Of a stretch of 64,000 nucleotides of DNA, positions 38,180-54,137 are shown piece by piece; within the stretch, counting starts at the first letter, position 1, and each line of letters opens with the position of its first letter. Under the pieces are notes generated by a model. That model worked only from the letters and a program-made list of their open reading frames with translations. It was not told the DNA's origin and did no database searches. The DNA is from Halieaceae bacterium. Its GTDB lineage: Bacteria > Pseudomonadota > Gammaproteobacteria > Pseudomonadales > Halieaceae. The translations under genes were made by a program, and so were the position numbers. Where the stretch lies: positions 62,001-126,000 of the forward strand of contig CACNSR010000001.1 in NCBI GenBank assembly GCA_902623175.1, given 5' to 3'.

Positions 38180-38255
38180 GGGGCTATAGCTCAGCTGGGA
38201 GAGCGCAACACTGGCAGTGTTGAGGTCGGCGGTTCGATCCCGCCTAGCTCCACCA
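38180..38255 (+). tRNA. tRNA-Ala (anticodon GGC)
   Basis: 76 bases including encoded CCA. The acceptor stem GGGGCTA pairs with TAGCTCC and contains the G3-U70 wobble that identifies alanine tRNAs. The D-arm, the anticodon arm (stem CAACA/TGTTG with loop CTGGCAG, anticodon GGC) and the T-arm (GGCGG-TTCGATC-CCGCC) are all intact. It marks the left edge of an AT-richer region in which degenerate copies of its 3' half recur three times, so it is the probable insertion site of a genomic island. Confidence 0.97.
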
Positions 38256-38565: not shown

Positions 38566-39996
38566 ATGAATAATGCGGCGGAGCCAACATTCAGGCAGGG
38601 TGTTGATGTTCTTTACAATCGTGCAGCAGATTTACTGACTATACCCCCAGGATTAGCTGAGAAAATTAGGGTCTGCAATTCTACTTACACGGTGCGATTT
38701 GGTGTCCGCCTGCGGGGGAAAGTGCAGGTTTTTGTGGGCTACAGAGCGGTGCACTCTGAGCACATGGAGCCTGTAAAGGGCGGCATTAGGTACTCATCGT
38801 CTGTAAATCAGGACGAGGTCGAGGCATTAGCAGCCCTGATGACATACAAATGCGCCTTAGTGGATACCCCCTTTGGTGGGTCTAAAGGTGGTTTGTGCAT
38901 CGAGCCCAGGGACTTTGACGAGACGGAACTAGAACAAATCACGAGGCGCTTTGCATACGAGCTTATCAAACGCGATCTCATTAACCCCAGTCAAAATGTC
39001 CCTGCGCCTGACATGGGTACTAATGAGCAGGTGATGGCGTGGATCGTCGATCAATATTCCAAAATGAATACCACGGACATTAATTCGGCGGCCTGCGTGA
39101 CCGGCAAACCGATTAACGTCGGTGGAATTCAAGGTAGGACAGAGGCGACAGGTCGAGGTGTTCAGTTTGCCTTGCAAGAATTTTTTAGGTGCCCTGAGGA
39201 TGTTAAAAAAACCGGACTTAACGGAGGTTTAGAGGGAAAGCGGGCAATTGTGCAAGGCTTGGGCAATGTTGGTTATCACGCTGCGAAATTCTTGAGTGAG
39301 GGGGATGGTGTAGTCATAAAGGCAGTAATTGAGAGAGATGGAGCCTGGATTTCAGATCAGGGAATCAATGTTGAAGAGCTTAAAAACTGGATAGACGCTG
39401 GTGAGCCACCTGAAAACTTCCCCGATGCAGATTTCATTCGAGAGGGAGCAAAAGTCTTAGAAGGCGATTGCGATATTCTAGTCCCGGCGGCATTGGAAGG
39501 AACCATAAACCTTAAGAACGCGGCAAAGATAAAGGCACCATTAATCGTTGAGGCTGCTAACGGGCCGATAACAGTGGGGGCCGACGAGGTGCTGCGAGGT
39601 CGGGGCACAGTGATCATTCCTGATTTGTATGCGAATGCTGGAGGAGTGACGGTTTCTTATTTCGAGTGGGTTCGCAATATCTCTCAAATTCGTTTTGGCA
39701 GATTGGAGCGGCGTCGAGAAGAGGCTAGGCATTCGATGTTGCTAGACGAGCTAGACAGGTTAAGCTCACTTTTGGGAGCTGACTGGTCTCTTTCTCACGA
39801 CTTCAAGAAAAAATATATGCAGGGTGCTGGAGAGCTTGAGCTAGTAAGGTCGGGCCTCGACGACACAATGAGAGCAGCGCTGCAAGAGATGAGGACGCTC
39901 TGGCATGAGCGCGGTGACATCGAAGACCTCCGGACAGCGGCCTATGTGTTGGCCATTAAAAAAATCATGACGAGTTACGAAACGAAGAGCCTCTGA
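38566..39996 (+). CDS. Glutamate/leucine dehydrogenase family protein
   Basis: NAD(P)-dependent amino acid dehydrogenase of 476 residues, probably glutamate dehydrogenase (GdhA-like), interconverting glutamate with 2-oxoglutarate and ammonia. Substrate- and catalysis-related lysines are in place: K71 (KGGIRYS), K95 (YKCALVD) and K107 (PFGGSKGG). The nucleotide fold has VQGLGNVGYHAAKFL, and the C-terminal half has LYANAGGVTVSYFEW. Glutamate versus leucine or valine is not certain from motifs. It is the only gene of the first island module, between tRNA-Ala and the first tRNA remnant. GGAGGG precedes the ATG. Confidence 0.93.
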   Translation: MNNAAEPTFRQGVDVLYNRAADLLTIPPGLAEKIRVCNSTYTVRFGVRLRGKVQVFVGYRAVHSEHMEPVKGGIRYSSSVNQDEVEALAALMTYKCALVDTPFGGSKGGLCIEPRDFDETELEQITRRFAYELIKRDLINPSQNVPAPDMGTNEQVMAWIVDQYSKMNTTDINSAACVTGKPINVGGIQGRTEATGRGVQFALQEFFRCPEDVKKTGLNGGLEGKRAIVQGLGNVGYHAAKFLSEGDGVVIKAVIERDGAWISDQGINVEELKNWIDAGEPPENFPDADFIREGAKVLEGDCDILVPAALEGTINLKNAAKIKAPLIVEAANGPITVGADEVLRGRGTVIIPDLYANAGGVTVSYFEWVRNISQIRFGRLERRREEARHSMLLDELDRLSSLLGADWSLSHDFKKKYMQGAGELELVRSGLDDTMRAALQEMRTLWHERGDIEDLRTAAYVLAIKKIMTSYETKSL

Positions 39997-40234
39997 GAAA
40001 AACGTTGATGTCTCGTTGCTATGCTGTCGATAATCCCTGCGCTGCAGTTTGAGAGCGTCACCTAGAGAAATTAACTTAGCGAGGGTGCCTGGCCCACGAA
40101 GAGTTCAAGGTGGCGTTTGAGATAGCGTAAGTTCGCCACTCAAACATAAGCTTAAATCAACAAAAAAATGATGAAAAAGCGTTAAATTCTGCCGGGGATG
40201 CTAGCTAGTTATGCCGTGACCTCCAGTACCGCAC

Positions 40235-40280
40235 CACTGGCAGTGTTGAGGTCGGCGGTTCGATCCCACCTGGCGCCGCC
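40235..40280 (+). repeat. tRNA-Ala 3' half remnant, copy 1 (att-like)
   Basis: Bases 40235-40267 are identical over 33 positions to tRNA-Ala 38209-38241, from the anticodon stem through the T-loop. The following 13 bases still resemble the acceptor stem and CCA end with substitutions. No 5' half is present, so it cannot be a functional tRNA. Identity from the anticodon arm to the 3' end is the usual extent of a tRNA-targeting integrase att site, so this is best read as the scar of an insertion. Confidence 0.85.
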
Positions 40281-40426
40281 GCGTCTTCCAGCCACCACCA
40301 AAGCTCACGAACAGACACTTGCCTCACATGAGTTGTATCTTGCTAAACCTCAGTTCAAAACCCATGAGGCCTAAGGTCCTCGCAGGGTCCTCTGAAGATC
40401 TTATTTAGGTGCCTATGTCACCCGAG

Positions 40427-40473
40427 GAAAAAGCCCCAGCCAGTCAGGGGTCTGATGTCTGACTGGCGGGGCT
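40427..40473 (-). terminator. Strong rho-independent terminator, minus strand
   Basis: Read on the minus strand, AGCCCCGCCAGTCAG and CTGACTGGCTGGGGCT form a 15-pair stem with one bulged base and an 11-base loop, followed by TTTTT. The T-run occurs only on this strand. No minus-strand protein gene lies to its right before the heme receptor gene, which is on the plus strand; this supports a short minus-strand transcript starting near the Fur box at 40599. Confidence 0.7.
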
Positions 40474-40515
40474 AAAAGGCTGCCACCTCGCTTGGCAGGG
40501 AGTCTTGTGGCAGCC
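40474..40515 (-). terminator. Rho-independent terminator, minus strand, proximal copy
   Basis: On the minus strand GGCTGCCAC (40515-40507) and GTGGCAGCC (40486-40478) form a perfect 9-pair stem around a 20-base loop, followed directly by TTTT (40477-40474). It lies immediately upstream of the second terminator, giving a tandem pair. Confidence 0.65.
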
Positions 40516-40585
40516 AATGCCCTGATCAATGATTCTCGGTTGTGCTCGCAAAACGGGAGAGTCATGCGTCCGAGAGAGGAAGCGA
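40474..40585 (-). ncRNA. Candidate Fur-controlled small RNA A
   Basis: Predicted transcript of roughly 105-115 bases from just left of the perfect Fur box (40599-40617) to the terminators at 40515-40474, minus strand. Support is architecture only: operator, short non-coding stretch, strong T-tailed hairpins, no minus-strand gene to the right. RyhB and PrrF RNAs have this layout and size. A convincing -10/-35 pair could not be picked. A 50-codon frame starting MTLPFCEHNRES runs through both terminators and ends at 40413; I consider it less likely than an RNA, but a small protein cannot be excluded. Confidence 0.45.
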
Positions 40586-40598
40586 TCTGAGCAATACA

Positions 40599-40617
40599 AA
40601 TGATAATCATTATCATT
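40599..40617. promoter_or_regulatory. Fur box, perfect 9-1-9 palindrome
   Basis: AATGATAAT-C-ATTATCATT is a perfect inverted repeat matching the Fur consensus at all arm positions. It lies 183 bases upstream of the heme receptor start and immediately upstream, on the minus strand, of candidate RNA A. It could act on either side. Confidence 0.9.
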
Positions 40618-40743
40618 GGTATTCGCAAGTGGTTTACCCCCCTGGCTGCAACACACATTTATCCGACTATCCGACCTCTCCAATAATTTGTATGAGTGGG
40701 ATGACTGGCTCGCCGAGTTGCAGAGAAATACGTGTTTATTGCG

Positions 40744-40762
40744 AATGATAATGATTCGCATT
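40744..40762. promoter_or_regulatory. Fur box of the heme uptake operon
   Basis: AATGATAAT-G-ATTCGCATT matches 16 of the 19 consensus positions (two arm mismatches plus the centre) and ends 38 bases before the receptor ATG, where a repressor would block transcription or promoter escape. Confidence 0.85.
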
Positions 40763-40800
40763 ACCATGAATGTAACTTCGTTTATGCTTTGGGAAAAACC

Positions 40801-43026
40801 ATGAAGAACTTGAGCCGATACGTTTTATGCGCGACCGTCGCCATAGTCATACCGATGAGTGTTGGGGCAACGGACCTCGAGACGATTACCGTAGTGGGGT
40901 CAAGGACGGAGCGTCCACTTAAAGAGATCGCCGCAACAATTGATGTTATTGATTCAGATCGAATAGAGGAGGAGTTGGCCCGAGACATAGCGGATCTCGT
41001 TAGGTTTGAGCCCGGGGTGACTGTATCTGGCACAGGCAGTCGCTTTGGTTTGAGTGGCTTTAACATTCGCGGCATCGGCGGCAACCGAGTCCTGACATTG
41101 GTCGACGGCGTCAGAGTAGCCGAGGAGTTTTCCTTTGGCCCATTTTTATCCTCGAGGCGAGATTTTGTTGACATCGACAGCTTGGCCAGTGCCGAAATCG
41201 CGCGTGGACCGATCTCTTCACTTTGGGGAAGCGATGCATTGGGGGGAGTAGTCTCCTTCAACACGCTGTCCCCTAGCAAATTTTTAGAGGACGACACGTT
41301 CTACTCCAGCTACAAAGTTGGTTACTCCAGTGCTGATGAGTCGGCAGTGGGAACCGTGACAATAGCTGGCAAGCAGGGTTCTTTATCAACGCTGCTCGTT
41401 GCGACGTTGCGGGATGGTCAGGAGACTGAAAATAACGCCTCGGCCGGCCCTGATTTTGGAGCCGGTCGGACACAGCCGGATGAGCAGGACAATAGCACGC
41501 GTAATGTCACGGCAAAGCTGAGTTGGGATATCAGCGAAAACCAACGCCTGCGCTTCGCATTAGACAGCTTCAAAAGCGAGACGGATACGAACATTCTATC
41601 CGACTACGGAATTTTTTCCCGAGGGACCCTAGTAAATTCACGCACTGCAGAAGACGAGAGGGATAGAACGCGGGTTACATTGCGATACGAGCATTCGGAT
41701 ATCAGCGTTCCTCTAATGGATAATCTCACATTGACTGCCTATTGGCAGGATTCTGAGAGCTTTCAGGACCTCACAGAGTCTCGTACACCACCCCCGTATT
41801 TCGCTTCTCAGACGCGAAAACGAGTATCAACATTTCAGCAGGAAATCGTTGGGGCTACAGCTCAATTTTCGAGCGCGATACTTACGCCAAAAACTTCGCA
41901 TACCCTGACATATGGCATTGATTATTACGAGACATCGAATGAGTCAGTGAGAGACGGAGGTACGAGGGATTCCTTGGGAAATCCCGTTTTTGAGTTTTCG
42001 CCGCTGCCCACCAGAGACTTTCCGAAGACCGATGTGGAGAATATAGCCTTCTATATACAAGATGAAATAGAGCTGTTTGATGGCAAGCTCTTGCTATCAC
42101 CAGGTGCTAGGTACGACCGAAATGAAGCTACCACAGCTCCTGACTCTCTTTATCTGCTGGGAAATCCTGGGGTAGCAACACCGGTTGATTACGAAGAATC
42201 TGAACTTACTTTAAAATTCGGCGCCATTGTTCAGTTAACTGACTCCCTGTCGGCATTTGGTAGATACAGTGAAGGGTTCAGGGCTCCGCCGTTCGACGAC
42301 GTGAATTTGGGCTTCACAAACTTTTTAGGTGGGTACAAAACCATATCTGCGCCCGATCTAACCTCAGAAACCAGCGATAGTTTTGAGGTTGGGTTGCGGT
42401 TCTTGTCAAAGAGCGCCGAAATATCAGTCACAGCATTTTCCAGTGACTATGATGATTTCATCGCATCCGCAGGCAGCGGCCACTGCCCCACAGCGTATCG
42501 CCAGTTTGGCTGTTTTGATCCAGTAGATGGGTTTTTGGTATTCCAATCTGAAAACATATCTAGAGTTTCGATCGATGGAGTAGAGCTGCGATTCCTGATG
42601 GACATGGGTGTTATGGGCCTTGACAACTTTGGCGTTCGAGGCGCAGTTGCGTACGCTGATGGGGAGGATGAGGATACGGGCGAACCATTGGACACCATTC
42701 AGCCTTTGACAGCGGTTCTCGGTCTCTCTTACGATTCTGAGGACGGGAAATGGGGAGGACAGCTCATTTGGACCGGCATCAAGGCGAAAGACTCGTCGGA
42801 TATCTCTGCGGGGAGTGCTTTGAGAGAAACTAGCGGTTATGGATTGTTAGACCTGATTGTCAGGTATCGATTGACAGAATCGTTAAGCGCAAACGCTGGG
42901 GTTTATAACATCATGGACAAAACTTATATCAGGTGGGCGGATACCGCAGGTATTGGTCGTGATGCGGCCGACAGGTTCACACAGCCGGGTACAAACTTTA
43001 GCATTGGTCTAAAGCTCGAGTTATAA
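40801..43026 (+). CDS. hmuR: TonB-dependent heme/hemoglobin receptor (HmuR/HemR-like)
   Basis: Outer-membrane receptor of about 741 residues that takes up heme with energy from TonB-ExbBD. It has a signal peptide (residues 1-23), a TonB box (ETITV, 27-31), a plug domain with GSRFGLSGFNIRGIGGNR and RGPISSLWGSDALGG, and a beta-barrel ending in ...SIGLKLEL with a terminal aliphatic residue. The FRAP motif (SEGFRAPPFDDVN) and a nearby PDLTSETS segment are the hallmark of heme/hemoglobin receptors. The frame is open from 40732, but that region holds the Fur box; the ATG at 40801 is the sensible start. The next gene begins 2 bases after the stop. Confidence 0.93.
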   Translation: MKNLSRYVLCATVAIVIPMSVGATDLETITVVGSRTERPLKEIAATIDVIDSDRIEEELARDIADLVRFEPGVTVSGTGSRFGLSGFNIRGIGGNRVLTLVDGVRVAEEFSFGPFLSSRRDFVDIDSLASAEIARGPISSLWGSDALGGVVSFNTLSPSKFLEDDTFYSSYKVGYSSADESAVGTVTIAGKQGSLSTLLVATLRDGQETENNASAGPDFGAGRTQPDEQDNSTRNVTAKLSWDISENQRLRFALDSFKSETDTNILSDYGIFSRGTLVNSRTAEDERDRTRVTLRYEHSDISVPLMDNLTLTAYWQDSESFQDLTESRTPPPYFASQTRKRVSTFQQEIVGATAQFSSAILTPKTSHTLTYGIDYYETSNESVRDGGTRDSLGNPVFEFSPLPTRDFPKTDVENIAFYIQDEIELFDGKLLLSPGARYDRNEATTAPDSLYLLGNPGVATPVDYEESELTLKFGAIVQLTDSLSAFGRYSEGFRAPPFDDVNLGFTNFLGGYKTISAPDLTSETSDSFEVGLRFLSKSAEISVTAFSSDYDDFIASAGSGHCPTAYRQFGCFDPVDGFLVFQSENISRVSIDGVELRFLMDMGVMGLDNFGVRGAVAYADGEDEDTGEPLDTIQPLTAVLGLSYDSEDGKWGGQLIWTGIKAKDSSDISAGSALRETSGYGLLDLIVRYRLTESLSANAGVYNIMDKTYIRWADTAGIGRDAADRFTQPGTNFSIGLKLEL

Positions 43027-43028
43027 AC

Positions 43029-43889
43029 GTGCTGCAGAGCGCTTTGTTAAGCCTTTTCGTGTTGGCATCAGGAGTCGCTCAGGCAGCAATCGAAGACGTC
43101 TGCTTGCCAGCAGGGGATTCCTCAAGAGTAGTCGCGGCTGGCGGCTCAATCGCTGAAATGCTTTACTCACTGGGAGCAGGACATCTTCTGGTCGCCGTAG
43201 ACTCCACCGCCAGCTACCTTCCTGAAACAGTGTCTTTACCCTCGATAGGCTATGTCCGCAATTTATCTGCTGAGGGCATACTTGCCCTGAAGCCCTCTTT
43301 AATATTGGGTGAGCACGACATGGGGCCAGCCGAGGTGCTCAATCAAATATCCAGTGTTGAGGTTGAGGTGAAGCGGATTGACGAGCGACATTCTGCCCAA
43401 GGAATTATCGACAAGTTCGTCTGCATAGCTAGAATTTTAGGTAAAGAGGATACGGCGCAAGACATTTTGAGAGGTCAACTCGCCGGGGTATTGACTTCGC
43501 TTGAAAAAGCCACTGAAGCAAGTGCAGATTTGCCGCGAGCCGCGCTCGTACTCAATTTCGTTGATAACCAGCCAATAGTAGCGGGAGCCAATACTTCGGG
43601 CGATGGTCTGCTGCGCATGGCTGGAGCCCAAAATGTTTTTTCTGACATCGAGGGCTGGAAGCCCTTATCGAGAGAGCTACTGATTGCAGCTAACCCAGAA
43701 CATCTTGTGGTCACTGAGAGGGCTTTGAAGTCGATTGGTGGGCTGGAGGGCATGTTATCGGATCCGCTTCTGGCATCAACCAACGCATTAAGCGACGACA
43801 ATGTTCACGCTTATGGCGGTATGAGCCTGCTTGGCTTCGGATTGCAAACTCTTGAAGTGGCGCTCAGTTTGAAAAAAGCTATCGAGTAA
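43029..43889 (+). CDS. hmuT: Periplasmic heme-binding protein (HmuT-like)
   Basis: Solute-binding protein of the FecB/BtuF fold that hands heme to the HmuUV importer. It is 286 residues with a signal peptide (LLSLFVLASGVAQA). The N-terminal half carries RVVAAGGSIAEMLYSLGAG, and the heme-ligand tyrosine of the family fits Y75 in IGYVRNLSAEGIL. The start is GTG at 43029, 2 bases after the receptor stop. Siderophore-binding relatives exist, but the FRAP-type receptor and the downstream ABM gene make heme much more likely. Confidence 0.9.
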   Translation: MLQSALLSLFVLASGVAQAAIEDVCLPAGDSSRVVAAGGSIAEMLYSLGAGHLLVAVDSTASYLPETVSLPSIGYVRNLSAEGILALKPSLILGEHDMGPAEVLNQISSVEVEVKRIDERHSAQGIIDKFVCIARILGKEDTAQDILRGQLAGVLTSLEKATEASADLPRAALVLNFVDNQPIVAGANTSGDGLLRMAGAQNVFSDIEGWKPLSRELLIAANPEHLVVTERALKSIGGLEGMLSDPLLASTNALSDDNVHAYGGMSLLGFGLQTLEVALSLKKAIE

Positions 43890-43922
43890 GCACCTGAGTG
43901 TTAGGAGGGGATCAGTAGCCAG

Positions 43923-44933
43923 ATGGGTGAAGCGCAGGGCGAGATTAGCAGTCAGGTAAAATTTTCGTTACTGCTTGGGATATGTCTGGCGTCCGTTTTA
44001 TCTGCACTGGCAATTGGCGGGGTACCCCTATCCTTAATTGAGATTGTGCGGGGTGAGGCTAGCAAGCTCGATTTAACTGTCTTCAGTGAAATTCGGGCGC
44101 CTCGCGTAATATTGGCGGCAACGGTGGGTGCCTCCTTGGCCGTTGCCGGTGCAGTACTCCAAGGTTTCTTCCGAAATCCTCTCGCCGATCCCGGGTTAAT
44201 TGGGGTGTCAGGGGGCGCCGCGCTCGGCGCTGTGGCAATGATCGTTCTGGGGTCTTCACTGGCTCTGCCCGCCACGTTTGCTCCATATACGATGCCATTG
44301 GCAGCAATACTAGGGTCACTCTGCGTGACAGGGGCCCTGTATTTATTCTCTGCATATTATGGACAATTTCGGATTGTCACAGTTTTATTGGTGGGTATCG
44401 CTATTAATGCTTTATCGAGCGTCGGCATAGGTATATTTCAATACGTAAGCAATGATGCCCAATTGCGATCATTAATATTTTGGATGATGGGGAGCTTTGG
44501 CAGGGCTCATTGGGTAACAACTGTTCCATGCGTGTTGGCGATGGTATCAGCAGTTTTAGTCCTGATTACGAAATCTAATTCCCTCGATAAGTTGCAGTTG
44601 GGCGAAAATGAAGCGTTTCACCTGGGTGTAGACGTGAAAGCGACAAAGCGCGATCTAGTTTTATTATCAGCGGTCTGCGTGGGTGCAGGCGTCGCAGTTT
44701 CTGGGATTATCGGGTTTGTCGGTCTGATAGTGCCTCATGTTGTGAGGTTCACAATCGGTGTTAGGCACAAGCCGCTGATGATTGGCTCAGCGCTTACTGG
44801 AGGGTCTCTGATGGTCTTGGCAGATCTGCTGGCGCGAATAGTCGCCTTGCCAGCTGAGGTGCCCGTGGGTCTAGTGACCAGCGCAATAGGAGCGCCTTTC
44901 TTTTTATGGCTGATAACAAAGGTTAAACCTTAA
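43923..44933 (+). CDS. hmuU: Heme ABC transporter permease (HmuU-like, FecCD family)
   Basis: Inner-membrane permease of 336 residues with about ten helices. FecCD family stretches are LRAPRVILA-like EIRAPRVILAATVGASLAVAG, GFFRNPLADPGLIGVSGGAALGA, and GIIGFVGLIVPHVVR. GGAGGGG lies about eight bases before the ATG. Its stop codon shares one base with the ATG of the ATPase gene (TAATG), so the two are coupled. Confidence 0.94.
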   Translation: MGEAQGEISSQVKFSLLLGICLASVLSALAIGGVPLSLIEIVRGEASKLDLTVFSEIRAPRVILAATVGASLAVAGAVLQGFFRNPLADPGLIGVSGGAALGAVAMIVLGSSLALPATFAPYTMPLAAILGSLCVTGALYLFSAYYGQFRIVTVLLVGIAINALSSVGIGIFQYVSNDAQLRSLIFWMMGSFGRAHWVTTVPCVLAMVSAVLVLITKSNSLDKLQLGENEAFHLGVDVKATKRDLVLLSAVCVGAGVAVSGIIGFVGLIVPHVVRFTIGVRHKPLMIGSALTGGSLMVLADLLARIVALPAEVPVGLVTSAIGAPFFLWLITKVKP

Positions 44934-45712
44934 TGGCGCTCCAGGCACAGAATGTAACAATCAATGTTGGTACGAAAACCATTGTTGACTCGGCGAGCGT
45001 AACCGTAAAATCTGGGTCCATTACGGTTTTAGTTGGGCCAAATGGAGCCGGAAAATCGACACTTCTGGGTGCGTTGTCGGGTCACTCAACCCCATCTGGT
45101 GGTCGAGTGGTAATCGCGGGGACGGACTTGGCCCAGCTCACACCTTTGCAGCTATGTAATCAACGAGCGGTAATGCTGCAGTCTGACAACCTTGTGTTCG
45201 ATTTCACTGTTGAGGATGTGATTCGAATGGGGCTAGTCTGGCAGTTCGAAGCATCTGAGGGCGAGAAAAGTGAGGTGATTAAAGATTTGGCAAGCACATG
45301 TGGGATAGAAGATCTGCTGAGTCAATCTATCCTTACGCTTTCGGGTGGGGAAAAGCAGAGAGCTCATTTTTGTAGATGTCTTGTTCAAATTTCGGGAAGC
45401 CATGACCGCGATACCTCAAAGTATCTTTTACTTGATGAACCGACATCTAGTCAGGACATTGCTAACGAGCTTCGCGTATTGAAACTACTCAAAGAAACAG
45501 CAATACAGCGTGAAATCGGAGTCTTTTTGATCGTCCACGATCTCAATTTAGCAGCTCACTTCGGCGATATTTTCTACATTATGAAAAACGGTAGGCTTGT
45601 TGCAGATGGAGACAGGGACGCTGTCATGACAGAGAATATACTCTCGTCTGTGTATGAGACACCCGTCAAAACTGAGCTCACTCCGAGTGGGCTAAGAATC
45701 CATACTTTTTAG
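44933..45712 (+). CDS. hmuV: Heme ABC transporter ATP-binding protein (HmuV-like)
   Basis: Nucleotide-binding subunit, 259 residues. Walker A GPNGAGKST at 35-43, Q-loop QSDNLVFDFTVEDV, signature LSGGEKQR, Walker B LLLDEPTSSQD and the switch histidine in IVHDLN are all intact. The DVIRMG phrase and general layout follow HmuV/FepC proteins. Coupled to the permease upstream and 9 bases before the ABM gene. Confidence 0.94.
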   Translation: MALQAQNVTINVGTKTIVDSASVTVKSGSITVLVGPNGAGKSTLLGALSGHSTPSGGRVVIAGTDLAQLTPLQLCNQRAVMLQSDNLVFDFTVEDVIRMGLVWQFEASEGEKSEVIKDLASTCGIEDLLSQSILTLSGGEKQRAHFCRCLVQISGSHDRDTSKYLLLDEPTSSQDIANELRVLKLLKETAIQREIGVFLIVHDLNLAAHFGDIFYIMKNGRLVADGDRDAVMTENILSSVYETPVKTELTPSGLRIHTF

Positions 45713-45721
45713 AGGAAAAAA

Positions 45722-46030
45722 ATGTTCCTTGCCATGAATCGCTTCAAGATTAACCCCAGCTTCACGCAGGATTTTGAGAAGGTATGGCGTGAGAGGGATA
45801 GTTTTCTGTCTGAAGTTCCAGGCTTTAAAAACTTTTCGCTGCTGCGAGGCCCAGAGTCTGAAGACCACGTCCTATACATCTCTCATTCTGTGTGGGAAAG
45901 CCAGGACGCGTTCATTAAATGGACAGAGTCTGAGGCGTTTAAAAAAGCACATCGCCAGTCAAGCGCGCCTAAAGGTACCTACCTCAGTCATCCTGCTCTT
46001 GAGACCTTTATAGCCGTCTTAGAGGAATAA
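45722..46030 (+). CDS. ABM-domain protein, probable heme-degrading monooxygenase
   Basis: 102-residue ferredoxin-like-fold protein of the antibiotic biosynthesis monooxygenase superfamily, with MNRFKINPSFTQDFEKVWRER at the N-terminus and VLYISHSVWESQDAFIKWTES in the second half. IsdG/HmoA-type heme oxygenases share this fold. Being the fifth gene of a heme uptake operon, 9 bases after hmuV, it probably opens the imported heme and releases iron. The heme-contacting residues of IsdG are not clearly traceable by eye, so the activity rests on context. Confidence 0.75.
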   Translation: MFLAMNRFKINPSFTQDFEKVWRERDSFLSEVPGFKNFSLLRGPESEDHVLYISHSVWESQDAFIKWTESEAFKKAHRQSSAPKGTYLSHPALETFIAVLEE

Positions 46031-46157
46031 TGGCTGCGCTCTGAATCATCGCGTGCCAAATTTTCATCAAGTTGGCATGGGCCTGAAATTTACGCGCCCA
46101 GATACTATGGCAAAGGTTCCTCAGAGTGTTGCTTAGGCACCGGTGACATGTATTGCT

Positions 46158-46931
46158 CTACTGCTCTACGAAAGCCCTTTCAATGACATAGTGAGCTGCG
46201 GTGCCATGCCGTGCCTCTTTGAATCCCCTGTCATCAAGAATTTTGCAAAGATCCTTGAGCATGCTAGGGCTTCCACATAGCATAAACCTCGCGTCATCAC
46301 CCGACGGCTTGGGCAAGTCTATATCGAGGAAAAGTTTTCCGGACGTTAGCAGGTCTGTGATCCTGCCTGTGTTACGAAAAGCTTCTCTAGTTACAGTGGG
46401 GTAGTAGATTAGCTTTTGACTCACCTCGCAGCCGAAATATTCATTTTTTGCTAATTCAGTCTGAATGAACTCTGCGTAGGCGAGCTCAGACTGCCACCTT
46501 ACTCCATGAACTAGCACTATTTTTTCGAATCGCTCATATACCTCAGGATCCTGAATTATGCTGATAAAAGGGGCAAGGCCAGTCCCTGTCGCTAAAAGAT
46601 AGAGAAATTTACCAGGCAGTAAATGATCAAGTACTAAAGTTCCCGTTGGTTTCTTGCTGACTAATATCTCGTCACCCACCCGGATGTTCTGAAGCTTTGA
46701 GGTCAACGGGCCATCGGGGACTTTAATGCTGAAAAACTCTAAATAGGACTCATAGTTCGGGCTCACAATACTGTAGGCCCGCATAAGAGGCTTGTCGTCA
46801 ACCATTAGGCCTATCATTACAAAGTGGCCATTCTCAAATCGCAGCCCTTGCGATCTGGTCGCAGTGAAGCTGAATAAGGTGTCGTTCCAATGGTTTACGG
46901 CTAGTACTTTTTCAGTGGTCAGATTACTCAT
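46158..46931 (-). CDS. fpr: Ferredoxin/flavodoxin-NADP+ reductase (Fpr, FVEx-ending subclass)
   Basis: FAD enzyme of 257 residues that passes electrons between NADPH and ferredoxin or flavodoxin. RAYSIVSPNYESYLEFF binds FAD, ATGTGLAPFISII starts the NADP domain, MLCGSPSML is also conserved, and the C-terminal AHYVIERAFVEQ matches the bacterial subclass ending in FVEK-like residues. A Fur box lies 76 bases upstream. Next to heme degradation it may supply electrons for heme opening or for iron release, as reported for Pseudomonas Fpr with heme oxygenase and bacterioferritin; this is inference. Confidence 0.93.
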   Translation of the reverse strand: MSNLTTEKVLAVNHWNDTLFSFTATRSQGLRFENGHFVMIGLMVDDKPLMRAYSIVSPNYESYLEFFSIKVPDGPLTSKLQNIRVGDEILVSKKPTGTLVLDHLLPGKFLYLLATGTGLAPFISIIQDPEVYERFEKIVLVHGVRWQSELAYAEFIQTELAKNEYFGCEVSQKLIYYPTVTREAFRNTGRITDLLTSGKLFLDIDLPKPSGDDARFMLCGSPSMLKDLCKILDDRGFKEARHGTAAHYVIERAFVEQ

Positions 46932-47006
46932 TGGCTCCCTTTAGCACCTCAGGCGCAGTGCCAGTCGAAGGTCTCATTAGCAGTGGTTCTAACGGCTTGT
47001 ATTATA

Positions 47007-47025
47007 TATGAGAATGATTATCCTT
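47007..47025. promoter_or_regulatory. Fur box upstream of fpr
   Basis: TATGAGAAT-G-ATTATCCTT matches 15 of the 19 consensus positions including the central base rule-out, with the core GAATGATTATC. It is 76 bases upstream of the fpr start on the minus strand. It may also face the long gap to its right. Confidence 0.7.
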
Positions 47026-47472
47026 TGTACGAGCGTCTGCCCTGCAGTGCTCATAAAGCCTCACCATGTCATCCCAATGATTGGCGGCAAAGCTGCAGGG
47101 CAGCGCACTTTCATTTCCCGCCGGACTGGAATGCTGTGATGTCACAGACGGTCCCTGCTCCCACGCTCGTTTAGCCTCTCATTACCCGACGTGTTTTTCG
47201 AGCCGACGTCATGCTTGCGCTGCACCAGAGTTTTAATTTCTGAGTCTAAAGATCCCAGCAATGACCAAGTTTTGCTCCTGAAGAACCTTCGGATGTCAAC
47301 ATGGTTGCCTTGCGGGTACCGGGAGAGCGGAGCGGATTTGCGAGTGCGGTGAGGAAAGTGACTACCGTTCTTTAGGTGGCACAGAGCCAAGACACAAGCG
47401 AAGTGGCTGAACCCTCAGATCATGAAAGCTTGGCCAGCACCGGCATTGCGTTTCCTTTGGGTAGTGGTTGAG
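47026..47472. other. Intergenic gap, fpr to FbpB-like gene
   Basis: 447 bases between a Fur box and the 3' end of the permease gene. I see no gene. It contains an exact 11-base inverted repeat, CTGCCCTGCAG (47037-47047) and CTGCAGGGCAG (47093-47103), starting about 12 bases right of the Fur box; without a following T-run it is not a standard terminator. It could be a structured leader or the remnant of a lost gene. Confidence 0.5.
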
Positions 47473-49101
47473 TCAAGCACCAAGGGTCGCTCTGGAGGAT
47501 CCAGATCGCTGCAGTAGCACTACCGGTATCACTCCGACTATCACAATCAGCACGGCCGCCAACGAGGCTTCACTGAGACGCTCATCACTTGCAAAGCGGT
47601 ATACATGTGTTGCCAGAGTGTTGAAGTTGAATGGCCTAAGGATGAGTGTCGCTGGAAGTTCTCGCATGACATCGACAAACACTAATAAGCACGCGCCCAG
47701 AATGCTCGGTTTCAATAGAGGCAAGTGGATACGCCACGTCAGGCCAAGCGTTGTCGCCCCCAGTGTTCGCGCAGCGGCGTCCAGGTCAGTAGAAATACTG
47801 GTGAAGCCAGATTCGAGTGCTTGATAGGCCACTGTGAGAAACCGGCAAACGTATGCATATAGGAGCAGCAACACACCGCCAGTAAAAATAGCATCTGTGC
47901 TGTTTGGCCAGATGTCGACCAGCCAATGGTTCACGGCGCCTAGAGGCCTTAAAAGCGCCACCGCCAGAAGAATACCCGGGAGAGAATAGCCGATCGTGGA
48001 GACGCGGATCAGACTGTGATTAAGTGGGCTTGGATGAAGTCGTTTTGTGTAAGCGAGCAGCCAAGCAATCAATGTAATTGTGACGCTCGCTGTAAGTGCG
48101 AGAGAAACGCTGTTGACTGTCATTCGAAAGAAATCGGCACTGCTGCTTTGTTGTAGGTGTTCAGACGCGTAAATGAGCAGCGTCGTCAGAGGTATGGCAA
48201 ATCCAAGGATAACGGGAACGAGACATGCCGTAACGGCAAGCCCAGCTTTTGCGCCTGTCAAATTTATCTGGGAGGCTTGTGTTAAATCGCTCGAATCTGC
48301 TGTTCCACGTCTATTCCTCTCTTCTAAAACAACCAGCATAATTACAAAGAGCAGCATAAAAGCTGCCAATCTGAGCGCTGCCGTGGCATCACCCAACCCA
48401 AGCCAAGTGCGGAAGATGCCGGTTGAAAATGTGGGCACCGAAAAATAGCTCACCACACCAAAGTCAGCGAGGGTTTCCATCAAGACCAATGCGAGTCCTC
48501 CTAGAATGGCTGGGCGGCTGGCGGGCAGAGCAATGCGGAAAAAAGCGCTATACGGCCCGTGGCCCAATACTCTAGCGGCATCAAACTGGGCGCCAGATCT
48601 ACCTGAAAAACTGTTGCGACTCAGCAGGTAAATGTAGGGATATAGTACCAGCGATAGCAAAATTGCAGCGCCTGGCAGTGTGCGGATCGATGGTAAGGGC
48701 AGTTCTCCAACATCGAGGGACAATAACGAGCGAAGGGCAGTCAGTACAGGTCCGGATACCTCGAACAGGTCAGTGTAGACGTAGGCCACGATGTATGCGG
48801 GCGCAGCCAAAGGAAGCATCAACAACCAGCTGAGAGTCTTCCGACCTTTAAACGAACAGGCACCAATCAGCCATCCAGTGCCGACGCCGAGGACTAGTGA
48901 TATCGCACCTGTTAGCGCCATTAGAGCGAGTGAGTTCAGCACATACTCCTGCAGCACGGTTTCTTGCAAATGTTCCCAGATCGGCCCTTGTGGCTCGGCA
49001 ACAGCCAACAGGGTGGCGACGATGGGGATTGATATCGCAATGGCCATCAGCCAGGCGGGTAACAGAAATAGAACTCTGGCATGTTGCGATACAGTATGCA
49101 T
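47473..49101 (-). CDS. fbpB: Ferric iron ABC transporter permease (FbpB-like)
   Basis: Double-module permease of 542 residues with about twelve membrane helices, as in FbpB/SfuB iron transporters. Each half has an EAA-type loop (ARVLGHGPYSAFFRIALPASRPAI and ARTLGATTLGLTWRIHLPLLKPSI). LPLAAPAYIVAYVY and VDVMRELPATLILRPFNFNTLATHVY are typical. The start ATG at 49101 lies 40 bases from the divergent ATPase gene; usually the three genes form one fbpABC operon, so this arrangement is rearranged. It imports Fe3+ delivered by FbpA. Confidence 0.92.
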   Translation of the reverse strand: MHTVSQHARVLFLLPAWLMAIAISIPIVATLLAVAEPQGPIWEHLQETVLQEYVLNSLALMALTGAISLVLGVGTGWLIGACSFKGRKTLSWLLMLPLAAPAYIVAYVYTDLFEVSGPVLTALRSLLSLDVGELPLPSIRTLPGAAILLSLVLYPYIYLLSRNSFSGRSGAQFDAARVLGHGPYSAFFRIALPASRPAILGGLALVLMETLADFGVVSYFSVPTFSTGIFRTWLGLGDATAALRLAAFMLLFVIMLVVLEERNRRGTADSSDLTQASQINLTGAKAGLAVTACLVPVILGFAIPLTTLLIYASEHLQQSSSADFFRMTVNSVSLALTASVTITLIAWLLAYTKRLHPSPLNHSLIRVSTIGYSLPGILLAVALLRPLGAVNHWLVDIWPNSTDAIFTGGVLLLLYAYVCRFLTVAYQALESGFTSISTDLDAAARTLGATTLGLTWRIHLPLLKPSILGACLLVFVDVMRELPATLILRPFNFNTLATHVYRFASDERLSEASLAAVLIVIVGVIPVVLLQRSGSSRATLGA

Positions 49102-49141
49102 AGACTGATAAGGACGTATTAACCGCGGTTAGTGTATTCAA

Positions 49142-50206
49142 GTGCTGGTAATTGAAAAAGTATCGCATCAGTTTGGTTTGCATCAGGTGCTCAACAATGT
49201 CTCTCTTCAGAGTGTCGGAGGGGAGGTGACTTGCTTGATTGGACACTCCGGCTGCGGCAAAACAACCTTATTGCGGCTATTGGCCGGTTTACTGAGGGTT
49301 CAGCACGGACGCATTCTTCTTGACGGTGAGGTGTTGGCGAGCCAAACGAAGATGGTGTCGCCTGAGGAGAGGCCCATAGGTATGGTATTCCAAGAAGGGG
49401 CTCTATTTCCGCATATGAGCGTTGCTGACAATGTCGCCTTTGGGCTCCCGAAGAAAGGGGCGCGCAAACGGGCCACAGAATGGTTGAAGCGGGTGGGGTT
49501 GGCTGATTTTGCTGGGCGGAATCCAGACAGCCTGTCCGGGGGGCAACGTCAGCGTGTCGCGCTGGCTCGAGCTATGGCGCCAGAACCGAGGGTCCTCCTG
49601 TTTGATGAGCCATTCGCAAATCTAGATGCGCCCCTCAGAAGAGCCCTACGAGATGATGCCAGACGCATCATTCGGGACACAGGCACTGTGGGACTGTTCG
49701 TCACTCATGATCCAGCTGAGGTATTGATGATGGCTGACAATGTCGCGGTGCTTGAACAAGGTTCGATTGTGGAAAGCGGCACACCGCAAGCACTTTACGA
49801 CAGGCCTGAGTCGCAATTCGCCGCAGAGTTATTCGGTGAGCCTCAAGTGTTCGAAGGAACAATTTATGACGATCGAATTGTGACGCCATTGGGGGAGTGG
49901 GAACGCCGCGTGTTGGTTGATTCAGCTGCGAGCAATGGTGATGCGTTGCTGGTCGTCGATGCTGACCGTCTAGAGCTGCGACCTGACGATAATGGGGTCT
50001 TGATCACTAGTATTCAGAGCTTCGGAAGGTTAAATCGCGTTTTCTTTGATGGGACTCGAGGCGAATTGACGGTGATTCTGAATTGGCCAAAAGATGCGGG
50101 TACCTCGATCGGAGTGGGTTCGAGGGTGCGGGTGGTGCCGAAGTCTGGTGCCGTCTTTGCGTCTCCCTGTTTCGTTGAAACGGATAATGATTCTCATTAT
50201 TATTAG
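49142..50206 (+). CDS. fbpC: Ferric iron ABC transporter ATP-binding protein (FbpC-like)
   Basis: ATPase of 354 residues with an N-terminal nucleotide-binding domain and a C-terminal TOBE/regulatory domain (from about 240). Walker A GHSGCGKTT is at 34-42, signature LSGGQRQRVALARAMAPEP, Walker B LLFDEPFANLD and VTHDPAEV follow. The start is GTG at 49142 without a ribosome binding site, so initiation may be leaderless. The last codons (DNDSHYY) are read out of the Fur box for the next gene, so the operator overlaps the coding end. It pairs with the divergent permease and the binding protein downstream. Confidence 0.92.
   Translation: MLVIEKVSHQFGLHQVLNNVSLQSVGGEVTCLIGHSGCGKTTLLRLLAGLLRVQHGRILLDGEVLASQTKMVSPEERPIGMVFQEGALFPHMSVADNVAFGLPKKGARKRATEWLKRVGLADFAGRNPDSLSGGQRQRVALARAMAPEPRVLLFDEPFANLDAPLRRALRDDARRIIRDTGTVGLFVTHDPAEVLMMADNVAVLEQGSIVESGTPQALYDRPESQFAAELFGEPQVFEGTIYDDRIVTPLGEWERRVLVDSAASNGDALLVVDADRLELRPDDNGVLITSIQSFGRLNRVFFDGTRGELTVILNWPKDAGTSIGVGSRVRVVPKSGAVFASPCFVETDNDSHYY
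50183..50201. promoter_or_regulatory. Fur box of FbpA-like gene, inside fbpC 3' end
   Basis: GATAATGATTCTCATTATT matches 16 of 19 positions of GATAATGATAATCATTATC. It overlaps the last codons of the ATPase gene and ends 33 bases before the FbpA ATG, so fbpA probably has its own iron-regulated promoter. Confidence 0.8.
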
Positions 50207-50234
50207 CGGACTCAGCATCGGAATAAATACTTTT

Positions 50235-51281
50235 ATGTCTAAGGCGTTTTTAACTCCTGTCTTCTTATTGGTCCTTTTCGCCACGCTCACGTCCTGCATG
50301 GACGAGAACAATGCTGACGACCCCACGGCCGACGAGGTCAACTTATATTCGTCTCGTCACTATGACACTGACAAAGCACTCTACGACAACTTTACCGCGG
50401 TCACCGGAATCAAAGTTAATTTGATTGAGGCGGGAGCTGACGAGCTTATAGCGCGAATACAAAGTGAGGGAGTGTCTAGTCCCGCCGATTTATTGGTTAC
50501 CGTAGACGCTGGACGTCTATGGCGAGCTGAGCAAGAAGGGATCTTTCAGCCTGTTAAGTCTGCACTGCTTGCTGATCGTTTGCCAGACAACATGCGACAC
50601 CCTGAAGGACTTTGGATCGGGCTCTCCAAACGCGCTCGTGTGATTGTCTACAACCGCGCCGCTGGTATGCCTGAACCTCTCCGTACTTACGCGGATCTGG
50701 CAAACCCAGCCCATCAGGGAAAGGTTTGCATTCGATCCTCGAGCAATATCTATAACATCTCTTTGATGGCGAGCATCGTGGCCAGAAACGGCGAGGCGGC
50801 GGCCGAGGAATGGGCTGCAGGTGTGGTGGCCAATTTTGCACGGACGCCCCAGAGCAACGATACGGGCCAGATTCGAGCTGTTGCTAGCGGTGAATGCGGC
50901 ATTGCCATTGCAAACACTTATTACCTAGCCAGGTTGGCGGCGTCAGAGGACCCCCAAGACCAAGCCGTAGCCTCGGCCGTGGGCGTTGTCTTCCCAGATC
51001 AGGGAGGCAACGGCACCCATGTCAATATTAGTGGCGCAGGTTTGGTTAAAACTGCTCCTAATTCCGAAAACGCGATAAGATTTTTAGAATACCTCGTTAG
51101 TGACGACGCGCAGTTGTTGTTCGCGAATGGAAACTATGAGTACCCTGCCGTGCCCGGACTCGCTGCGACATCAACAGTGGTCGCTCTAGGTGATTTTGAA
51201 GAAGATTCTCTCAATACCTCTGAACTTGGATTAAATCAGGCTGCTGCGCTCATGGTGTTTGATCGTGCCGGTTGGAAGTAG
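50235..51281 (+). CDS. fbpA: Ferric iron-binding lipoprotein (FbpA/FutA-like)
   Basis: Iron(III)-binding receptor of the periplasm, 348 residues. A lipoprotein signal ends in LTSC (C21). The mature part begins VNLYSSRHYDTDKALYDNF, standard for this family, with H42/Y43 in the first ligand region; the adjacent tyrosines Y229-Y230 (ANTYYLARL) are the family's iron ligands. The longest frame begins at 50094 inside the upstream gene; ATG 50235 gives the proper signal peptide. It is expressed from a Fur-controlled promoter and feeds the FbpBC-like importer. Confidence 0.94.
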   Translation: MSKAFLTPVFLLVLFATLTSCMDENNADDPTADEVNLYSSRHYDTDKALYDNFTAVTGIKVNLIEAGADELIARIQSEGVSSPADLLVTVDAGRLWRAEQEGIFQPVKSALLADRLPDNMRHPEGLWIGLSKRARVIVYNRAAGMPEPLRTYADLANPAHQGKVCIRSSSNIYNISLMASIVARNGEAAAEEWAAGVVANFARTPQSNDTGQIRAVASGECGIAIANTYYLARLAASEDPQDQAVASAVGVVFPDQGGNGTHVNISGAGLVKTAPNSENAIRFLEYLVSDDAQLLFANGNYEYPAVPGLAATSTVVALGDFEEDSLNTSELGLNQAAALMVFDRAGWK

Positions 51282-51287
51282 TCCTGC

Positions 51288-51498
51288 CTAGGACTGATTG
51301 TATGTTCCCGTGATCACGCCGAGGGCTGCGCCCAGTAACGCGAAAACTGCATAGAGCGGCCCTATCGCTGAGTCCTCGGTTACAGACCGATAAGAGATTT
51401 ACCCCATCTACGGTAGCAGAGCCCTTATCTACCGAATCGGGCCTAACAAAGATTTTCATGATGATGGTTTTTCCCGCGCCGCTCTCTTCCCTTAGTGT
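51288..51498 (-). pseudogene. Decayed ABC-transporter ATPase fragment
   Basis: On the minus strand, residues resembling an ABC ATPase start (TLREESGAGKTIIMKIF then SVDKGSATVDGVNL) lie at about 51498-51380, recalling the Walker A context xGESGAGKTTxMKIL plus xPxSGxxxVDG. After a likely frameshift the reading continues in another frame as VTEDSAIGPLYAVFALLGA and ends at 51288. Neither frame makes a full gene, and the upstream part of the open frame (to 51639) has no homology I recognise. I call it a remnant with modest confidence; a chance resemblance is possible. Confidence 0.35.
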
Positions 51499-51607
51499 AG
51501 GTTTAGCTCCATGTGCTGGTGATCTCTGGTTGGCAGCAGTAGCGCCTTCAAACCGGCGTTTAGCTTGCACACGGGTATCACTCACCATTTCTCTGCGAAG
51601 GGGATTT

Positions 51608-51646
51608 AAAAAACCCCACCTAAAGGCATAAGTACCCAAGGTGGGG
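51608..51646 (-). terminator. Rho-independent terminator, minus strand
   Basis: On the minus strand CCCCACCT (51646-51639) and AGGTGGGG (51621-51614) make a perfect 8-pair stem around a 17-base loop, followed by TTTTTT (51613-51608). The T-run is only on this strand. Confidence 0.75.
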
Positions 51647-51731
51647 AATAAACTCCTGCCATCGCTTCTTGGGGAGAAGCAGCCCCTCGTAAGGGAGAGC
51701 GTTATCTTTTCCGGTAAAGATTGCTCAGAGG
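51608..51731 (-). ncRNA. Candidate Fur-controlled small RNA B
   Basis: Predicted transcript of about 124 bases on the minus strand, from just after the Fur box (51756-51774) to the terminator at 51646-51608. A weak promoter fits: TGATTA (51766-51761), 17-base spacer, TGTAAA (51743-51738), start near 51731; the Fur box covers its -35. The RNA contains an internal hairpin, GCTTCT-CCCCA-AGAAGC. It also contains an 18-codon frame (MAGVYSPPWVLMPLGGVF) overlapping the terminator. Evidence is layout only; the terminator might instead serve the gene ending at 52066. Confidence 0.45.
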
Positions 51732-51755
51732 AGCTCGTTTACAACAGGAGAAAGG

Positions 51756-51774
51756 AATGATAATCATTCTCATC
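51756..51774. promoter_or_regulatory. Fur box with no adjacent intact gene
   Basis: AATGATAAT-C-ATTCTCATC matches 17 of 19 consensus positions. No protein gene starts near it on either strand: on the plus side about 290 bases are empty up to the 3' end of a minus-strand gene at 52066, and on the minus side only the candidate RNA B and a decayed ABC fragment follow. Confidence 0.85.
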
Positions 51775-52065
51775 TAGGGCGTCAAGTTCGTAGCGGCGAA
51801 ATGTGGATTAGAGTAAACATTGATACCAGTGTTCAAAGCTTTTAGAGCCCAAATACGTTGGCTATGTTCATGCTCGTTCGTCGAGACCGTGAGTAGCCTC
51901 TAGCCGCCACTGAAGGTTTAGGCTGGACGTTGCGAACGCATTAATTTTTCCGGTATCTCAGCGTCCTACTCCTCAGTCCTTTGGAATCAAAAGAGGCTGG
52001 TCGCTTCCACAAAGGACTTTTCTGCTTACTCGACCTAAAAGTGCTGCAATCCCACTAAGCTGATT

Positions 52066-52581
52066 TTACCTTTGCGTGTGAATGAGCACGGACGAGGCTA
52101 CGATTGAGTACTCCGGAGAAGGGTTGTCGGCTGCAACGCGGCTGCTGGACCCGAGATCAGTTTGGTAATGGTGCGCTTGAGCGCCTGATAACTGTACCTC
52201 TGAAAAAATTCCTTCGATGAGAACTAGAGAATCAGCGGCATCAGTTGGGACAAAAAAACCATAGTCACGGAATGTGACGCGAGCCCACTTTTCGCCCTCC
52301 ATAGCGATAAAAAAGCAACCTTTAGCTTGGCAAACTTGCGTAATTTTCGCAGAGACTCGAACCTCCTTACCCAAGTGACTTTGCTTCTGCTCAATAAGAT
52401 CTATAAGGCTCAACCCTGCTGACTTATTCGGCATTGGATCGCCGAATACTTCGTAATTTGATCCCATTTCCACGGGTTCTGAGAGCCTCAGTGCGTCAGT
52501 GCTTAGACTTCCTGCTAAAACTGTTGATGCACCCAAAACTGAAATTGAGAATGCCGACACCAAAACGCCAGTTATTTTCAT
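52066..52581 (-). CDS. Secreted DUF4920 protein
   Basis: 171-residue protein with a signal peptide (ITGVLVSAFSISVLGASTVLA). The mature part has the DUF4920 pattern: LIDLIEQKQSHLGKEVRVSAKITQVCQAKGCFF, then RVTFRDYGFFVPTDAADSLVLIEGIF. The paired cysteines in VCQAKGCF are family-typical and could bind metal or form a disulfide; function is not established. ATG 52581 has GGAGGTGA eight bases upstream, better than the longer frame start at 52599. It is the last gene of a possible minus-strand set with the HPP and DoxX genes. Confidence 0.82.
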   Translation of the reverse strand: MKITGVLVSAFSISVLGASTVLAGSLSTDALRLSEPVEMGSNYEVFGDPMPNKSAGLSLIDLIEQKQSHLGKEVRVSAKITQVCQAKGCFFIAMEGEKWARVTFRDYGFFVPTDAADSLVLIEGIFSEVQLSGAQAHHYQTDLGSSSRVAADNPSPEYSIVASSVLIHTQR

Positions 52582-52626
52582 TTCTATCGTCACCTCCATC
52601 TCGCAGTGCAGGCTCGAGGCGCTGCG

Positions 52627-53154
52627 CTACCAATATTTAGGGTAAGAACGATCACGCCATAAATTGTTATAAGCAATTCCAAGCGTGACGATCACTAGGG
52701 CGCCAGCCAGTGTTGGTGTAAAAAGAAAACTCCAATCGGGGCCTGCCAAAAAAATCGCAATGGGATTAGAGCCGGCAGGTGGATGCGCTACCTTAAAAAA
52801 AAGCATCGCAACAGTAGTCAATCCAAGAGCAAAGCCCATGATAAAAAAGCTTTTTCCGATAAAGTGGAAACAAGCAAGGCCGATAGCAGACGCCAAAAAA
52901 TGACCAATAAGCACATTTCTTGGCTGCGCAAACGGTAAGTCTGGGACAGCCATAACTAAAAAAATCGAGGCTCCAAAGGAGCCCATTATTAGTGCGTGCT
53001 GTGAAAAATCCGCTAGAAAGCCCAGCGCAGCGCCAGCTACCGAAGCACCGATAAAAGCGATGAGCAAACCTTTTACCGGCGGGCCTGTTTGGTCGGGTAA
53101 ATAACGCTGCGGTAATTTGAATCTAAAAGTCATATCGCCGGCAAATTTGACCAT
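52627..53154 (-). CDS. HPP family membrane protein
   Basis: 175-residue integral membrane protein with four predicted helices and the HPPAG motif (residues about 123-127) that names the family, in the context FFKVAHPPAGSNPIAIFLAGPDW. HPP proteins have been linked to nitrite transport in plastids and cyanobacteria, but the bacterial members mostly lack an assigned role. It sits 45 bases upstream of the DUF4920 gene on the same strand. The start at 53154 is GTG/ATG-like at MVKFAGDM; a later methionine (MTFRFKL) is possible. Confidence 0.87.
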   Translation of the reverse strand: MVKFAGDMTFRFKLPQRYLPDQTGPPVKGLLIAFIGASVAGAALGFLADFSQHALIMGSFGASIFLVMAVPDLPFAQPRNVLIGHFLASAIGLACFHFIGKSFFIMGFALGLTTVAMLFFKVAHPPAGSNPIAIFLAGPDWSFLFTPTLAGALVIVTLGIAYNNLWRDRSYPKYW

Positions 53155-53230
53155 ATCTCTGCGATGTCACTCACCGCCGTGCACCACGTTTTCAAAAAGC
53201 ATTTTGTGATGGGACTCGTTTGTGTCGCGC

Positions 53231-53644
53231 CTATGAGTTTTCCTTACCAATGGGTTGTTGGAAATAATTGTCAATGCTCCAAATGCCTGGGCCGTTTGCT
53301 GCGATTGACAAGAAACCGAAGCAGTACAGGGCGGCGAGCTCGCCACCATTGATCATGGGGAAAAAGTTGTTGAGGCCGTGAACCATCCAGTAGGCAACTG
53401 CCATGGTTCCGCTACAAATGAAGGCCACCGGACGAGTCATACACCCTAGTAAGACTAAGGCTCCTCCGACGAGTTCGATTATGCCGGCTGTTTGGCTCAG
53501 GGTATTGAGCTCATAAGGAAATTCCACTGGAATATTGAAGAGCTTTTGTGTCCCATGCCACATGAAAAGGAACCCTAAAACCATTCGGAAAAGGGCGTAC
53601 GATGGATTCGTTAGCGAATCCAGTAATCTATTCAAGTAACTCAT
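53231..53644 (-). CDS. DoxX family membrane protein
   Basis: 137-residue protein with four membrane segments, beginning MSYLNRLLDSLTNPSYALFR, with FLFMWHGTQKLF and the TAGIIELVGGALVLLGCMTRPVAF block of the DoxX/DoxD-like family. Members are linked to thiosulfate oxidation or redox stress systems, with no fixed biochemical role. It lies 76 bases upstream of the HPP gene. No Fur box precedes it. Confidence 0.88.
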   Translation of the reverse strand: MSYLNRLLDSLTNPSYALFRMVLGFLFMWHGTQKLFNIPVEFPYELNTLSQTAGIIELVGGALVLLGCMTRPVAFICSGTMAVAYWMVHGLNNFFPMINGGELAALYCFGFLSIAANGPGIWSIDNYFQQPIGKENS

Positions 53645-53715
53645 GTTTTATTTATTCTCCTTAACGAGGATTTCATCCCAGATCGCGAGACTAGCAATTA
53701 GTCTCCCGTGCTTTT

Positions 53716-54120: not shown

Positions 54121-54137
54121 CCAACGGGCGAACAGTC

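Follow-up and report, generated by a model that had tools for sequence, protein, structure and literature searches.

The 800-base gap between the gdh gene and the gene of a TonB-dependent receptor holds two Fur boxes, which raises the question of what, besides the receptor, may be under Fur control at this locus. The window, i.e., the whole stretch of 64,000 nucleotides that was analysed, belongs to a Halieaceae genome of 65 contigs and 2.39 Mb. A first-pass annotation had proposed that one of the boxes controls a small RNA read from the minus strand, a 50-codon frame being the alternative.

Layout of the gdh-receptor gap

The features on which the following discussion is based are, from left to right:

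38566-39996, plus strand: gdh, a Glu/Leu/Phe/Val-type dehydrogenase gene, left of the putative RNA unit
40413-40565, minus strand: 50-codon open frame (ATG at 40565) across the putative RNA, judged not coding (pN close to pS, no Shine-Dalgarno sequence, C-terminus not kept)
40428-40473, minus strand: second T-tailed hairpin (-28.2 kcal/mol, z -6.3), probable main terminator of a transcript of about 166 nt
40474-40515, minus strand: first T-tailed hairpin (-21.5 kcal/mol, z -3.4), at which a transcript of about 120 nt may end
40523-40587, minus strand: conserved 5' core of the putative RNA, 65 nt, with a UUCCYCUCU stretch and a hairpin with loop CUCCCGU; probable pairing region
40599-40617, palindromic: Fur box AATGATAATCATTATCATT, a perfect 9-1-9 palindrome overlapping the -10 and spacer of the promoter-like site
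40600-40628, minus strand: promoter-like site, with -35 TTGCGA (40628-40623), a 17-nt spacer and -10 TATCAT (40605-40600)
40744-40762, plus strand: second Fur box, found by pattern scan just upstream of the divergent receptor gene
40801-43026, plus strand: TonB-dependent receptor, first gene of an iron/haem-type uptake operon and divergent partner of the putative RNA in all three genomes that carry it

The receptor gene is followed by genes for a periplasmic binding protein, a FecCD permease and an ABC ATPase. Within the gap, no Pfam-supported gene was found for the two minus-strand frames tested. In agreement with the first-pass annotation, the hairpins have no Pfam-supported minus-strand gene to their right that they could terminate, the receptor being encoded on the plus strand. 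The stretch between Fur box and hairpins, of about 75 bases, contains no supported gene. On the left side, gdh also lies on the plus strand. A tRNA-Ala(GGC) is located at 38180-38255 and its 3' part (38204-38254) is repeated at 40230-40280, as a direct repeat of 51 bases (90%) lying 2026 bases downstream. Hence gdh sits between the tRNA and its partial copy, and this pair may be the footprint of an integration that brought gdh beside the putative RNA gene.

A scan with a 16-base Fur-box pattern, allowing up to 3 mismatches, gave 14 matches in the window versus 0.29 expected from shuffles. The RNA-side box has no mismatch to this pattern on the minus strand, and its description as a perfect 9-1-9 palindrome was verified. 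The minus-strand promoter prediction that had been suggested as a check yielded the -35/-10 pair at 40628-40600, which matches 9 of 12 consensus positions and has its -10 inside the Fur box. Since the scan of 1 kb on both strands found 2 sites versus 1.0 by chance, this match is weak on its own. It would place the RNA start near 40593. A Fur box at the promoter is thus seen in the sequence, as in the class of Fur-repressed iron-responsive small RNAs to which RyhB, PrrF, NrrF and HrrF belong.

The two tandem T-tailed hairpins claimed for the locus both fold, and only on the minus strand are they followed by T runs. A simple terminator scan of 1 kb found the second hairpin only, i.e., 1 terminator versus 0.8 in shuffles, which is no excess. 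Judged from sequence features only, the locus is a short intergenic unit with an intrinsic terminator, as is typical of the same class.

Further Fur boxes occur in an iron island covering 40599-58830. Near them are ABC-transport genes and the genes of two enzymes that are iron-free replacements for iron enzymes, namely class II fumarase (54497-55885) and nickel superoxide dismutase (59112-59585).

Distribution and conservation of the unit

The unit recurs in two Halieaceae MAGs of the same genus, G021 and G046, where the covariance search of relatives proposed in the first-pass annotation recovered it. BLAST, the exact core pattern and the covariance model agree on these two and the window's genome as carriers, i.e., 3 of 57 genomes of the genus and 3 of 140 of the family. 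BLAST against 97 genomes gave matches in 15, including the window's own; matches of at least 200 bases were confined to the three carriers and the remaining ones covered 20-28 bases at the Fur box. The exact core pattern (22 fixed bases), run on one genome per species for 84,980 species, found only records of G046 and G021, and had no match in the viral contig collection. There is no second copy in the window's genome, where the other match is the reverse strand of the second hairpin.

In the 140 family genomes, the covariance model gave matches at E 0.1 or better in 6, of which 3 are real (186-203 bits). The other three were rejected, having 15-22 bits, a GC content of 0.71-0.81 and, as best Fur-box likeness within 550 bases, sites with 8-10 mismatches in 18. 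A sample of 390 genomes of the order, searched at E 0.01, returned the window's own element and two matches that were also rejected (19.9 and 18.7 bits; 7 and 9 mismatches). Because the family and order searches used the stricter filters of Infernal and scored at most 20 and at most 7 candidates per genome, respectively, diverged copies may have been missed; since many genomes are also incomplete, absence is not proven genome by genome.

The receptors of the two other carriers share 90% and 85% protein identity with that of the window. On the 3' side of the unit, the neighbouring frame differs: it is gdh in the window; in G021, it is a 288-codon frame with no Pfam match; and in G046, a peptidase-S24-like gene. 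The RNA unit and the receptor stay together while this frame changes, which argues for an independent unit. A receptor homologue (71% and 70%) without the RNA occurs in two more members of the genus; in each, a single Fur-box-like site (4 mismatches) lies close to the gene, and the 700 bases upstream contain no other. Second box and RNA therefore occur together. From the comparison of carriers, the RNA behaves as a separate gene, either travelling with the receptor or arisen beside it.

All three genomes retain the promoter-like site, the Fur box, the 5' core and the two hairpins, whereas the spacer and flanks diverge. In the three genome pairs, the 65-nt core differs at 1, 5 and 6 positions, whereas the spacer between the receptor-side Fur box and the -35 of the RNA differs at 53 of 104, 39 of 106 and 53 of 114 positions (37-51%, gaps ignored; Fisher p of 1.6e-13, 9.5e-6 and 9e-8). 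The core is also better kept than fourfold sites of the receptor gene, which differ at 52%, 42% and 49% (p of 2.8e-17, 9.9e-9 and 2.6e-10). The RNA-side Fur box shows 1 or 3 differences in 19 across the three genomes and the receptor-side box 0 or 1 in 19 in the two other carriers. The TTGC of the -35 is retained with a spacing of 16-17, as read from the alignment. The hairpins are better kept than the spacer as well (p of 8.1e-8, 0.0012 and 4.3e-9), with 9, 10 and 5 differences in 42 for the first and 4/46, 4/44 and 3/44 for the second; beyond it, 60 columns differ at 28/52, 26/52 and 20/59 positions, gaps again being ignored.

The stability of the hairpins is less exceptional in the relatives, with z of -1.5 and -3.5 in G021 and -1.4 for both in G046. 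The tail of the first hairpin reads TTTT in the window and CTTT and TTGT in the relatives. This short T run makes its role as a terminator uncertain. The second hairpin has a run of five or six T behind it in each genome and is thus the firmer terminator. The putative small RNA would measure about 166 nt, or about 120 nt if the first hairpin terminates. One compensatory change, U-A to C-G, was found in the first hairpin. The three sequences are too alike for a significant covariation signal, the one pair changed on both sides being reached in 148 of 500 shuffles. Before this count, the automatic structure was trimmed by 5 outer pairs, because a 2-base deletion in G046 misaligns its last columns; the deletion also accounts for 3 unpaired cells.

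Taken alone, the 5' domain has z of -0.5, -2.5 and +0.5 against shuffles and is not more stable than these in the window or G046. Its central hairpin is predicted for each of the three genomes, an outer stem only for the window and G021. The 5' domain thus seems to be kept as primary sequence, as would be expected of a pairing region. Kept as a sequence and devoid of a coding signal (see below), the unit shares a further property with the Fur-repressed class.

Other stretches adjoining Fur boxes were observed in the genus. On the plus strand of the window, 47007-47160 lies between an oxidoreductase gene (46158-46931) and a permease gene (47473-49101). About 85 bases of it are nearly identical in G046 (L017), and it has a 12-pair hairpin, only short plus-strand frames and a z of -0.9 over the whole stretch. 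It is possibly a second Fur-controlled RNA. In two other members of the genus (L006 and L007, from 1501 onwards), a similar stretch follows a Fur box. It lies opposite the apparent start of a gene that is also present in L010, and could hold a different Fur-controlled element.

Small RNA, small protein or transcription barrier

The 50-codon frame exists as the first-pass annotation had claimed, from the ATG at 40565 to 40413, and one may ask whether this frame (MTLPFCEHNRESLI...), or another one, is translated under Fur control. All three genomes keep it open, with the ATG at the same place and hardly any change in the first 14 codons. However, over 38 codons pN amounts to 0.133, 0.146 and 0.104 for a pS of 0.090, 0.124 and 0.110; the two are about equal, and the frame shows no coding signal. 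Besides, the conserved ATG has no Shine-Dalgarno-like sequence ahead of it, the C-terminus varies (50, 68 and 101 residues), the frame passes through both hairpins, and the product encoded in the window has no Pfam match at E 0.01. A second frame showed a pS of 0.31 versus a pN of 0.07 in one pair, but this excess did not hold across all three sequences, and none of the six frames on both strands beats column shuffles (lowest 341 of 2000). Two internal conserved starts are preceded by short purine runs (GAGAA before TTG; AAGCGAG or AAGCAAG before GTG), so that the Shine-Dalgarno test alone leaves room for a shorter product. Overall, a small-protein gene is very improbable.

Nor does it seem at all likely that the Fur box serves the receptor side only, the hairpins being a transcription barrier between convergent units with no regulatory RNA involved. 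Such an arrangement would fit with the frame beyond the hairpins, which converges on them in all three genomes, and with the Fur box present upstream of the receptor. However, it leaves unexplained why the 65-nt core is better kept than the spacer, and the T runs face the minus strand only. The co-occurrence of second box and RNA, drawn from the receptor homologues without RNA, also argues against it. The unit kept in three genomes and the frame devoid of coding signal instead support the Fur-controlled RNA proposed at the outset, with a presumed role in iron starvation in the sense of RyhB and PrrF. A Fur-repressed, intrinsically terminated, trans-acting small RNA gene is the best explanation of the locus, with a probability of roughly 75%. 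Points against it are the narrow spread of the unit, the lack of significant covariation, the unexceptional folding of the 5' domain in two of the three species, the less exceptional hairpins of the relatives and the ordinary complementarity to the usual iron-sparing targets.

From these elements, we infer the following course of events. In iron-replete cells, Fe-Fur would occupy 40599-40617, thereby masking the -10 and spacer and preventing transcription. Under iron shortage, synthesis of the RNA would start at about 40593, proceed leftwards and stop at the second hairpin (about 166 nt), perhaps also at the first (about 120 nt), as in HrrF and HrrF-L. The conserved 5' domain would then pair with ribosome-binding regions of mRNAs, probably assisted by Hfq, and lower their translation. 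An Hfq gene is present in all three carriers; Hfq is reportedly not required by all members of the class.

Known iron-responsive RNAs and candidate targets

The first-pass annotation had compared the locus with RyhB and PrrF. As far as layout is concerned this likeness stands, and it extends especially to HrrF; it does not extend to sequence families, since no Rfam family matches. At gathering score, Rfam found only a tRNA in the whole window, its library presumably including the RyhB and PrrF models. Permissive matches were far below cut-offs and disagreed between species, and were taken as chance; neither RyhB nor PrrF appeared in any of these scans. The element shares with RyhB of Escherichia coli the order operator, RNA, terminator, without belonging to its Rfam family. 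At the predicted 5' end, positions 40578-40595 of the minus strand (ATTGCTCAGATCGCTTCC) are identical to positions 41-58 of RyhB (NC_000913) at 16 of the 18 bases, a score reached in 6 of 1000 shuffles. This part of RyhB belongs to its pairing region. In the relatives, the corresponding match is not the best one, with scores of 10 in G021 (197/1000) and 9 in G046 (420/1000). As the look-alike is not kept, it is not a conserved seed and the element was not filed as RyhB.

PrrF1 and PrrF2 of Pseudomonas were reportedly found through an intergenic Fur site and a predicted Rho-independent terminator (PMC4211561). The same two features pick out the present element, which is single-copy, unlike these siblings. 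HrrF of Haemophilus influenzae is described as having a Fur site and one start, with two Rho-independent terminators in tandem that yield a short form and a long one, HrrF-L being about 260 nt (PMC4144887). Compared by description, this layout is especially similar; HrrF differs in bacterial family, gene neighbours and the greater length of HrrF-L. BrrF, in contrast, is described as having no Fur box of its own and as thought to be co-expressed with hemP (PMC7377471). RusT of Caulobacter crescentus is presented as an iron-starvation RNA controlled by NtrYX, many of whose candidate targets are outer-membrane transporters (PMC11005374). One weak candidate target here is likewise a TonB receptor, while the present element has a Fur box. 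Taken together, the absence of an Rfam family, the unconserved RyhB look-alike and the HrrF-like layout point to a new member of a known functional class.

As for pairing, the likeliest candidates are the conserved UUCCYCUCU stretch, for the most part unpaired, and the CUCCCGU loop; each is complementary to Shine-Dalgarno-like sequences. The complement GAGAGGAA lies 2-11 bases before an ATG at 7, 9 and 10 sites in the three genomes versus 2, 5 and 7 for the reversed pattern. These sites include apparent orthologue pairs, namely rubredoxin-rubredoxin reductase (G000 and G021), a TonB-dependent receptor (G000 and G021; in G000 with 14 contiguous pairs, G-U counted) and a DUF3450 gene (G021 and G046). 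Orthology was judged from translations, and for rubredoxin reductase also from 92% identity. The classical targets acnB (three genomes), leuC (two) and sdhC (one) are not prominent: between 23 and 43 of the 47 window genes show equal or better pairing. This score counts contiguous pairs with approximate stacking energies against a single background, the 47 window genes paired with the window's RNA. The leuC pattern matched in two of three genomes (not G000), and sdhC was found in two of three and scored in one, at a doubtful GTG start. Energies from duplexfold over whole sequences were implausibly large and were excluded from target assessment.

As a variant of the small RNA reading, it could tentatively be proposed that the RNA remodels the envelope or a few redox genes rather than sparing iron in the classical manner, as RusT does in the case of outer-membrane transporters. 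The orthologue pairs agree with this, and so does the lack of prominence of acnB, leuC and sdhC. However, the candidates were selected by the seed itself, which biases their pairing rank, and the sites, of a Shine-Dalgarno-like motif, are only modestly above the reversed-pattern control. Moreover, of two relatives that lack the RNA, one (G050) has AGAGAGGA ahead of rubredoxin reductase and the other (G033) has not; G046 has no match for the rubredoxin reductase gene; and the DUF3450 pairing is weaker in G046 (-14.5 versus -19.7).

Iron is often limiting for marine bacteria. Among the papers listed in literature searches, none was seen to describe this element or another Fur-controlled small RNA in Halieaceae (OM60/NOR5), and papers retrieved with the names of the two other carriers concerned, by title, other subjects. 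The small RNA reading yields clear predictions: a transcript, the sizes of its forms and its regulation by iron. A fuller and more speculative picture would be a lineage-specific, Fur-controlled RNA of recent origin beside a TonB operon in one Halieaceae genus, whose pyrimidine-rich 5' seed would block the ribosome-binding sites of non-classical targets, namely rubredoxin reductase, TonB receptors and DUF3450, instead of those of the usual iron-sparing set of the TCA cycle. If the RNA is real, the genus would offer a recent example, restricted to one lineage, of a type of control that reappears in bacteria without shared sequence.
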